A stretch of 33,327 bases of DNA from Caryophanales bacterium (GTDB lineage Bacteria; Bacillota; Bacilli; Exiguobacteriales; Exiguobacteriaceae). The translations under genes and the position numbers were made by a program. The notes under the pieces are model-generated. The model was not told where the DNA came from, did no database searches, and saw only the letters and a list, made by a program, of their open reading frames with translations. This document shows, in pieces, positions 12,054-15,062 of this stretch; the stretch's first letter is position 1, and each line of letters begins with the position of its first letter. The DNA is taken from contig CABIYO010000031.1 in assembly GCA_902362975.1 (NCBI GenBank), positions 1 through 33,327 of the forward strand, read 5' to 3'.

Positions 12054-12806
12054 TTATTGTTCTACTGTTTTACGCGTATGATGCAAAAACGATTTCGGAC
12101 GTTTCCACAAAATCAAACCGATATACCCAATCGCTAGCAATGTAAGGGCGCTGACAATCACAACATAGAGTGTGCCTTCTTCGATTCTAGCAAAGATACC
12201 GATATACGCCCATACGAATACGAGTGGGTAGATGAAATCATGATGCCACCACATAAAGAGGAGGGCAAGGACTACACCGACCATCAGCATAAGTGAGGTC
12301 CAGGCGAGCTCATCAAGACCTAACAGCGACGTGATCTGTTCCGTCTTCATCACAACGAACGTGTTGACGATGGTCGCGACTGATACCCAGCCGATGTAGA
12401 TGGAGAACGGGAACCGATCGAGCCAGCTCGTAGACGTTCGAAAAGCGATGTAATACAACCAGCACAGCGTAGCCAGGAACAACACCATGATGATCAGTGA
12501 GACGACGAACCATTCGTTCGTGAATGCCAATAACCATAAACCATTCAACACGCAAGAGACTAAAAATCCAGCCTTCATTCGCTCGGCTTGACGATTCGCC
12601 GTCGTCCCTTTCTTCAACTGGAGCACCAGCCAGACAAGAAGCGCGACATAGATGACACCCCAAATTGAGAAAGCGTACCCTGCCGGCTTAAAGTAGATAT
12701 CGATGCGGTCCGAAACCGCTGCGTTGTCGCCGTTCGCAAAGTAGTTGATGACGACGGTCGCTAAAAAAGCGACCCAGTTTACAATCGGCCATTTTGATAA
12801 GTCCAT
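12054..12806 (-). CDS. TspO/MBR-family tryptophan-rich membrane protein
   Basis: A 250-aa membrane protein with seven or eight hydrophobic segments and many Trp residues, longer than the classical 5-span TspO (about 160 aa). The segment FKPAGYAFSIWGVIYVALL matches the TspO/translocator signature region, as do WLLAF and the later FSIYIGWVSVATIVNT. Classical TspO proteins bind porphyrins and sterols and help in stress responses; this longer branch has no settled function. The start is odd. The strong SD (AAAGGAGGTG, 12835-12844) is 28 bases from ATG 12806, but a 19-base hairpin fills the gap and leaves an effective spacing of 9. A GTG at 12812 is the only in-frame alternative and has a poor SD. 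It has its own promoter and terminator. Confidence 0.85.
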   Translation of the reverse strand: MDLSKWPIVNWVAFLATVVINYFANGDNAAVSDRIDIYFKPAGYAFSIWGVIYVALLVWLVLQLKKGTTANRQAERMKAGFLVSCVLNGLWLLAFTNEWFVVSLIIMVLFLATLCWLYYIAFRTSTSWLDRFPFSIYIGWVSVATIVNTFVVMKTEQITSLLGLDELAWTSLMLMVGVVLALLFMWWHHDFIYPLVFVWAYIGIFARIEEGTLYVVIVSALTLLAIGYIGLILWKRPKSFLHHTRKTVEQ

Positions 12807-12812
12807 AAGCAC

Positions 12813-12831
12813 AATCTTCTAAATGAAGATT
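12813..12831 (-). promoter_or_regulatory. Hairpin between SD and start codon (TspO gene)
   Basis: On the minus strand AATCTTC-ATTTA-GAAGATT: a perfect 7-bp stem and 5-base loop sitting between SD AAAGGAGGTG and the start codon. With the hairpin folded, TTT plus GTGCTT (9 bases) separates SD from ATG. The structure therefore either brings the SD into register or acts as a translational switch. Confidence 0.65.
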
Positions 12832-12850
12832 AAACACCTCCTTTTGTAAC

Positions 12851-13838: not shown

Positions 13839-13879
13839 AAAAGGTGACTGTCCGCTCCCTTGAAACAGTCACCTTTTTT
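13839..13879. terminator. Bidirectional terminator after the FAD oxidoreductase gene
   Basis: Perfect 12-bp stem AAAAGGTGACTG/CAGTCACCTTTT (13839-13850 with 13866-13877), 15-base loop, A-tract on one side and six T on the other. It abuts the stop codon of the FAD oxidoreductase. Confidence 0.85.
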
Positions 13880-14991
13880 CATGTGTGATAGATAAAGTCT
13901 TCAATTGGATAGAGCGATAGATCCACTTCTGCGTCACCTGTCAGAACGAGGTCACTCAACACTTTTCCGATGAATGGGCCGACCGTCAAGCCGGATGAGC
14001 CCAGACCGTTCGCGACTAACAGTTTTTCTGCCCCCGGCACCTTCCCGAGAACGGGAATTGAATTTGGTGTGACCGGACGGAAGCCGACCTTCGTCTCAAC
14101 GAGTTCCGCTTCAGCAAGTCCAGGTGCCGACTCCAAACCTTTCGTCAGTACTTCGTGCACTCCGATTGCAGTCGGTCGAACGTCGAACGCTTTTCCTTTC
14201 TCATGTGTCGAACCGATGACCACTTTCCCGTCGTCAAATCCGAGTAAATAGCGGCGTCGTGGCGGCATGACGACCGGCCAGTCAGATGCATCTGTATCCT
14301 TCAACTGGACGTGGACGAGCTGGGCCTTTTCCCCTTCGACTCGTACCGTATATCCAAGAGGCTGTAACAGTTCCGGTAACCAAGCACCCGTCGCAAGGAT
14401 GATTTCATCCGCTTCATATCTCACTCCGTCACACTCCACACCAATCTCATCTCCGCTCGTCAACCGTGCTGAACCGTTGACAAATGTGACGCCACGCTTG
14501 ATAGCGACTCTCTCAAGTGCAGCGCGAAAGCGTCCGCCGTCGACTCTAGCCCCTCCTGTCACGAAGAGTGCATCGTATTCATCGGATAACGGTGGGAAAC
14601 GATGTTGTGCCTCTTCTGCAGTTAGTCGTTCGAGTTCACCGATTTCTGGCGCTTCTTCTCGACGAAGCAACGTTCGCTCCATCATCTGGTCGAGCTTTGT
14701 TTCTTCATGGAGCGCAAGCGTCCCGACACATTTGTATCCGGTGTCCGTCTCCCCTTCAGCTTCCAGCTCTTTGACGACCTTAGGATAATAGCTTGCTCCG
14801 CCTTTCGCCAGTGCATACCAAGCTTTGTTGCGTCGCTGCGCAATCCACGGACATACGATTCCAGCCGCGGCATCCGTTGCTCTTCCTTCTTCTTTCCGGT
14901 CAATGACCGTTACATCCGCTTTACCAGCTAAATGATAGGCAGCCGAGACACCGACGATCCCTGACCCGATAATCACTATTTTCTTCATCAT
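13879..14991 (-). CDS. FAD-dependent oxidoreductase of the D-amino acid oxidase/DadA family (YurR-like)
   Basis: A 370-aa flavoprotein of the DAO superfamily, which oxidises secondary or primary amines of amino acids. The N-terminal FAD motif is KKIVIIGSGIVGVSAAYHL, with VIDRKE ending the second strand. The C-terminal family segment is GFRPVTPNSIPVLGKVPGAEKLLVANGLGSSGLTVGPFIG. It has no signal peptide and is probably cytoplasmic. Substrate unknown. The start is odd: SD AAAGGA (15022-15027) lies about 30 bases from ATG 14991 (or the adjacent ATG 14988), with a perfect 8-bp hairpin in between, leaving 9 bases when folded. That SD starts only 3 bases beyond the T-tract of the preceding gene's terminator, so transcription by read-through from the Bax1-like gene is likely. 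Confidence 0.88.
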   Translation of the reverse strand: MMKKIVIIGSGIVGVSAAYHLAGKADVTVIDRKEEGRATDAAAGIVCPWIAQRRNKAWYALAKGGASYYPKVVKELEAEGETDTGYKCVGTLALHEETKLDQMMERTLLRREEAPEIGELERLTAEEAQHRFPPLSDEYDALFVTGGARVDGGRFRAALERVAIKRGVTFVNGSARLTSGDEIGVECDGVRYEADEIILATGAWLPELLQPLGYTVRVEGEKAQLVHVQLKDTDASDWPVVMPPRRRYLLGFDDGKVVIGSTHEKGKAFDVRPTAIGVHEVLTKGLESAPGLAEAELVETKVGFRPVTPNSIPVLGKVPGAEKLLVANGLGSSGLTVGPFIGKVLSDLVLTGDAEVDLSLYPIEDFIYHT

Positions 14992-14993
14992 AA

Positions 14994-15014
14994 ATCTGTC
15001 TTGCGCAGACAGAT
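14994..15014 (-). promoter_or_regulatory. Hairpin between SD and start codon (FAD oxidoreductase gene)
   Basis: On the minus strand ATCTGTCT, loop GCGCA, AGACAGAT: a perfect 8-bp stem. It fills the gap between SD AAAGGA (15022-15027) and the start, leaving TGTGTCC plus TT (9 bases) outside the stem. Same architecture as at 12813-12831. Confidence 0.65.
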
Positions 15015-15029
15015 GGACACATCCTTTCG

Positions 15030-15062
15030 TAAAAAAATCATCGACCCAACGGATCGATGATT
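15030..15062 (-). terminator. Terminator of the Bax1-like gene, just upstream of the FAD gene SD
   Basis: On the minus strand ATCATCGA, a 9-base loop, TCGATGAT, then seven T (the last T of the stem included). It begins a few bases after the stop at 15068. Three bases after the T-tract the SD of the FAD oxidoreductase begins. Confidence 0.85.

Follow-up and report, generated by a model that had tools for sequence, protein, structure and literature searches.

The gene for an FAD-dependent oxidoreductase on a contig assigned to the Exiguobacteriaceae raises the question of how translation can begin where the Shine-Dalgarno (SD) sequence lies about 30 nucleotides from the start codon and a perfect hairpin occupies the space between them. 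The window, the whole stretch of DNA that was analysed, comprises 33,327 nucleotides (GCA_902362975.1, contig CABIYO010000031.1), and an original prediction made from its letters had described this layout at two unrelated genes and taken it for a recurring initiation strategy.

Two leaders with a hairpin between SD and start codon

The oxidoreductase gene (13879–14991, minus strand) encodes a ThiO-like protein of 370 aa in the DAO family; its product matched the Pfam profile PF01266 (E 2.1e-59), and the NCBIfam profile TIGR02352 with 173.2 bits, under the cut-off of 250.8. Its leader, on the minus strand throughout, carries the SD GAAAGGA (15022–15028; extended form AAAGGATGTG) with the core AAAGGA at 15027–15022, followed by a perfect 8-bp stem that was recognized from sequence and predicted folds. 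The whole hairpin spans 15014–14994 and consists of the 5′ arm ATCTGTCT (15007–15014), the loop GCGCA (15002–15006) and the 3′ arm AGACAGAT (14994–15001); the dinucleotide tt separates this arm from the first start codon, ATG at 14989–14991, which is directly followed by a second ATG at 14988 (ATGATG). The distance from AAAGGA to the ATG is 30 nt, made up of 21 nt of hairpin and 9 remaining bases, exactly as originally described. In aligned spacing, counted from the base matching the last G of GGAGG, the same distance is 28 nt, and 7 nt once the hairpin is removed; 7 is also the commonest spacing in samples of SD-bearing genes from two related genomes, G001 (75/292) and G008 (72/281).

An intrinsic terminator hairpin (15036–15062, minus strand; identified from sequence) lies 3′ of a Bax-inhibitor-like gene, and its T-run stops 3 nt before the DAO SD (window 15070–15022, minus strand), which leaves no room between the two for a promoter; DAO transcription must read through the terminator or begin farther upstream. 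By eye, a terminator-like hairpin with a T-run shortly before the DAO SD, at a gap of at most about 20 nt, was also visible in 19 relatives.

The second gene with the same geometry and a different stem, about 2 kb from the DAO hairpin as the original prediction had stated, is TspO-like. Its SD AAAGGAGGTG (12835–12844, minus strand), identical in 19 of 20 leaders and differing by one base in the other (L042), is followed on the same strand by the hairpin AATCTTC-ATTTA-GAAGATT with a 7-bp stem (12813–12831) and by a conserved ATG (12804–12806), found as ATGGACTT in 20/20 leaders. The list of open reading frames starts this gene at GTG 12812, a codon that is not kept across the 20 leaders; judged from the alignment, the start is ATG 12806 and not GTG 12812. 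The aligned spacing in the window is 30 nt, or 9 nt without the hairpin.

Thermodynamic stability of the leaders is ordinary. The 71-nt DAO leader folds with a z-score of −0.43 (61 of 200 shuffles were equally good) and the TspO leader with 0.33; a 121-nt DAO fold that takes in the terminator is unusually stable (z −2.37). These longer predicted DAO folds also pair part of the SD weakly, GGA with UCC in the 71-nt fold and with coding sequence in the 121-nt fold. Stability calculated from one sequence at a time therefore proves little, and the case for the hairpin rests on comparative evidence.

DAO and TspO-like leaders across the genus

The DAO gene was found in all 19 other genomes of the genus that were searched, so that with the window 20 leaders could be compared; weak additional matches (L020–L024) were left aside, as were 11 sister-genus DAO homologues whose leaders are unlike those of the genus. 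The extended SD AAAGGATGTG followed by a stem before the ATG is kept in 18/20 leaders, and the stem letters are replaced between clades: the 18 stems take 13 distinct forms, including ATCTGTCT/AGACAGAT and variants, CTGTAAA.../...TTTACAG, GCCGTCATCG/CGATGATGGC and variants, GCCCTCA/TGAGGGC, and CGCCCCC/GGGGGCG. On average, 98% of positions pair between a leader’s own arms (a figure favored by the choice of arms for best pairing) versus 55% when arms are swapped between distinct stems; the 22 of 156 swaps that still pair fully are between near-identical forms. The alignment of the DAO leaders left the arms out of register and was excluded from pair counts.

The departures from this pattern are few. 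Neither L018 nor L019 has a stem, and their SD spacings are 8 and 5; L012 has merely a 5-bp core stem with an internal loop and an effective spacing of 23, that is, the distance left once the hairpin is discounted. L005 has a stem; its spacing of 5 was measured from another GAAAGGA, which lies in the loop and 3′ arm. Six of the 18 stem-bearing leaders are at an effective spacing of 13.

The TspO-like stem, in the form RRTCTTC/GRRGATY, stands between SD and ATGGACTT in 20/20 leaders, frequently with a UUCG loop in the relatives. All 119 of 119 cells on 17 distinct leaders are paired; the stem varies little (3/7 pairs never vary), and 23/500 shuffles reach the observed values.

Genome scan and three further genes

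A scan against shuffled leaders covered 1.2 Mb of G001, the nearest genome (about 41% of it), in which greedy calling of open reading frames of at least 80 aa gave 1198 frames. It retained leaders whose SD lies 18–45 nt upstream and is at least 1.5 kcal/mol stronger than any normally spaced SD, a far SD that 133 of the open reading frames possess, and whose perfect stem, with one G-U permitted, leaves 4–13 nt. SD scoring used the usual 16S 3′ tail, which may not be the host’s; in pattern searches, this tail had no exact match in G001, G008, G011 and G006. The genome sequence fetched, 2.0 Mb, contained 170 N.

Stems of at least 7 bp were found in 6/1198 open reading frames versus a shuffled mean of 1.20, a count reached in 0.5% of 200 shuffles, so that the excess over shuffled leaders expected by the original prediction was obtained. 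With stems of at least 6 bp the count was 11 versus 4.20, and with at least 5 bp 17 versus 11.74, which is not significant; a stricter SD threshold at 7 bp or more gave 5 versus 0.45 (0/100 shuffles). The excess depends on the strong-SD filter: under a loose filter (SD threshold −7.5, no margin) it was lost at 7 bp, with 9 versus 6.5. The main filter is itself a revision made after a first version, which on 400 kb each at 6 bp had yielded no significant excess in G001, at 3 versus 1.42, and 3 versus 1.44 in G008. With stems of at least 7 bp, 400 kb of G008 gave 4 versus 0.54; two of these are the DAO and TspO orthologues and hence not independent, and the other two (at 73745 and 363949 of the joined sequence) appear by eye to be likely spurious. 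In small samples of 400 kb, the sister-genus genome G031 (1 versus 0.39) and Escherichia coli K-12 (1 versus 0.37) showed no significant excess.

The six G001 matches are the DAO and TspO-like genes and four others, and these four were compared over 19 genomes; five weaker 6-bp candidates stood outside the comparison with relatives. A 161-aa candidate among the six was rejected: an upstream reading frame spans its hairpin and stops in an overlapping ATGA, and the upstream peptide across the hairpin is near-constant in 19/19 genomes. The accepted class, judged by these comparisons, is small, at five unrelated genes of 1198; by extrapolation, a genome would contain roughly a dozen of them, provided that the remainder of G001 is similar.

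The first new member is cmk, the (d)CMP kinase gene, whose stem is kept in 19/19 genomes; in its leader the stem, of the GGGTATCGG/CCGATACCC type and in 6 forms, comes after AGGAGG. A small hairpin, CTCGG/CCGAG, directly precedes this SD in 19/19 genomes and thus places it between two hairpins (seen, for example, in leader L120, just upstream of 5833 on the minus strand). The second is a RimK-like ATP-grasp gene, in which AGAAAGGAAGTGAA and then a stem are kept in 19/19 genomes, with forms such as AGACGCA/TGCGTCT, CACCGTG/CACGGTG and AGGTGC/GCACCT; the stem ends 4 nt before the ATG in 16/19 leaders and 2–3 nt before it in the others. The third encodes a protein of 95 aa that matched neither Pfam nor NCBIfam at E 0.001, and shows ATCTATTCATC/GATGRATAGAT in 19/19 genomes, in merely two stem forms.

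Covariation is clearest in the ATP-grasp leaders. Pairing holds in 111/111 cells over 16 distinct leaders (shuffled mean 77.3%, 0/500 as high), the covariation score is 0.805 versus 0.338 in shuffles (0/500 as high), and 6/7 pairs change on both sides, with a number of double-change cells reached by 0/500 shuffles, although related sequences can top shuffles even without structure. Structures slid out of place scored at most 0.28. Two of the five measures did not rise above shuffles, namely the pairs with double changes (6 versus 4.9) and further pair types (10 versus 11.5). The TspO and 95-aa stems are too uniform for covariation to be tested strongly, and it is the ATP-grasp and DAO genes that show most strongly a stem conserved under changing sequence.

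The geometry is shared by all five genes. Over 95 stem-bearing leaders the total spacing, by core stem, is 26–39 nt; in 94/95 the hairpin is 17–29 nt long, and the effective spacing is 5–13 nt in 94/95, values that fall within the normal range or close to it, with 13 at the long edge and L012 as the exception. By gene, effective spacing ranges over 5–13 for DAO (17/18 leaders; mostly 7 to 13), 5–11 for TspO (mostly 11), 6–8 for cmk (usually 8), 5–9 for ATP-grasp (usually 9) and 11–12 for the 95-aa gene (usually 12). As a caveat, the predicted fold of some leaders is extended by outer pairs; were these to form on the ribosome, the remainder there would fall to between −2 and 3 nt. Segments from the SD motif to the ATG beat dinucleotide shuffles (P ≤ 0.05) in 17/17 distinct DAO segments (18 leaders contain the motif; L018 and L019 do not and were excluded), and in 11/16 distinct segments for TspO, 14/14 for cmk, 15/16 for ATP-grasp and 11/11 for the 95-aa gene.

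The sister genus and other Bacilli bear on whether the stem and the distance belong together. In sister-genus ATP-grasp leaders (11 of 19 read) the SD spacing is 6–7 and there is no 6-bp stem. Relatives that lack the stem and yet keep the distance, an outcome that the original prediction had singled out as adverse, were found neither among these 11 nor in the 2/20 stemless DAO leaders (spacing 5–8 overall). For sister-genus cmk (13 of 19 leaders read) the same check was ambiguous: the leaders have no 6-bp stem and an AAGGA near the start, and 7/13 also have a slightly stronger GGTGA match 25–26 nt upstream. Among cmk leaders of other Bacilli, 0/21 had a 6-bp stem separating the best SD from the start, with several starts uncertain. 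Stem and distance thus come or go together for DAO and ATP-grasp, and less clearly for cmk.

A proposed spacing device and its alternatives

As the hairpin is kept in relatives, sometimes with different letters, it probably takes up the extra distance by folding, and it is likely that it acts as a spacing device within a split, or accommodated, ribosome binding site. The SD would bind the 30S tail, the stem would stay folded beside the mRNA channel while the ribosome initiates without melting it, and the single-stranded remainder alone would count as spacing, so that the start codon reaches the P site. Leader anatomy and the comparison with relatives suggest, as steps of this model, formation of the hairpin in the cell, use of the far SD and initiation that leaves the stem intact. 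Of the recurring initiation strategy that was originally proposed, the recurrence has held, in a small class of five accepted genes among 1198, and its role in initiation is a reading of the sequence.

A regulatory element that switches translation in response to protein, RNA, ligand or temperature, with spacing as a secondary matter, is unlikely, even if the hairpin occupies the initiation region, where switches act, and its genus-wide conservation would fit regulation as well. The stems and loops of the five genes share no evident sequence and the DAO and ATP-grasp stems are replaced between clades, which makes a shared sequence-specific ligand unlikely, and no Rfam family was matched in the window at gathering score. 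ROSE-type RNA thermometers likewise place a hairpin in the initiation region; according to PMC8346122 it is the SD or the start codon that is paired in them, whereas in the present leaders the SD and AUG both lie outside the intervening stem instead of being paired when it is closed, unlike thermometers that sequester the SD. A combined version is likewise unlikely: genus-wide accommodated starts, that of cmk included, could serve as an inverse switch, on when the stem is folded and off when melting by heat or helicase stretches the spacing, the stems being renewed wholesale, perhaps by template switching, with the geometry kept.

Improbable, too, is a misplaced start, by which initiation would use another codon or a closer SD inside the hairpin and the far SD would be incidental. 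It draws on the in-frame CTG that lies 9 nt from AAAGGA in the window’s DAO leader, and on closer SDs (−8 kcal/mol or better) in 2/18 stem-bearing DAO leaders, 10/20 TspO leaders (6 GGAGG, 4 GATCC) and 1/19 leaders of the 95-aa gene; at the same threshold there is no closer SD in the window’s two leaders, the 19 cmk or the 19 ATP-grasp leaders, and in the aligned ATP-grasp and DAO leaders it is the far SD that does not vary. The CTG was rejected as the true DAO start, its frame being lost in L003, where the spacer is 1 nt shorter. In DAO leaders L003 and L005 and TspO leaders L034, L036–L039 and L041, a second SD-like sequence lies in the loop and 3′ arm at normal spacing; such a second SD might act as an alternative site once the stem opens. 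A role for the palindrome as an operator in DNA or as a signal in transcription, unrelated to translation, is highly improbable. Its 8-bp inverted repeat has a common operator shape, and there is little promoter room between terminator and SD; the arms, however, change together, with G-U pairs (seen for ATP-grasp), and TspO relatives carry the UUCG loop. An operator would be expected to conserve its letters and not its pairing, and here pairing is kept and sequence is not, so that a transcription-factor operator was rejected. Least credible of all are chance hairpins in long leaders: single leaders are indeed not unusually stable and shuffles yield about one such gene per 1.2 Mb, but each gene’s stem persists in all or nearly all of the genomes compared (18 to 20 out of 19 to 20) and is replaced in two genes, and pairing is kept under sequence change in DAO and ATP-grasp, the evidence being weakest for TspO and the 95-aa gene, where there is little variation.

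The spacing-device reading has precedents in bacteriophage T4 genes 25 and 38 (Nivinskas, Malys). The review PMC3014915 describes for these two genes an SD more than 20 nt from the AUG and an intervening structure that bridges the two and shortens the spacing from 22 to 5 nt in gene 38 and from 27 to 11 nt in gene 25, a role backed by mutations and, for gene 25, by DMS probing. The likeness to these cases consists in the distant SD, the hairpin in between and the shortened spacing. The sequence of T4 gene 25, GAGG-c-[CTCAAAG AGTT CTTTGAG]-8 nt-ATG, has the same layout, and the leaders described here share its defining features: a long SD spacing (28 nt for DAO and 30 nt for TspO versus a mode of 7), a hairpin wholly between SD and start, and a remainder within a functional range of spacing. 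Gene 25, with no more than the weak GAGG as its SD, for that reason escaped the scan at the main threshold and was found at a relaxed one. In contrast to the T4 genes, the present cases are chromosomal, have SD matches longer than GAGG, number five, and are known from sequence alone; their stem sequence is replaced between clades in two genes.

In Escherichia coli thrS, the initiating ribosome accommodates a long hairpin without unfolding it, as stated in PMC3936740, and for E. coli rpsA (S1), SD-like parts were proposed to be joined by hairpins, a proposal that later work did not support according to PMC1805508. Of these, thrS resembles the present leaders in the accommodation of a folded hairpin at initiation, which is the arrangement proposed here, and the rpsA proposal would bring two half-SDs together where here it is SD and AUG. 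The thrS hairpin reportedly lies upstream of the SD, splitting off a further single-stranded region and not the SD from the AUG, and its leader is said to serve autoregulation. A search of open-licence literature found the T4 cases, thrS and the rpsA proposal, and no chromosomal class.

We infer that hairpin-accommodated sites of the kind found in T4 genes 25 and 38 recur on bacterial chromosomal genes, and the several chromosomal cases in one genus suggest that a folded stem within the spacer is something bacterial ribosomes can tolerate routinely. Such genes would be misjudged by start-site callers and models of translation in which spacing is counted along the linear sequence, and the natural stem variants would be useful in tests of how spacing is read by the 30S subunit.
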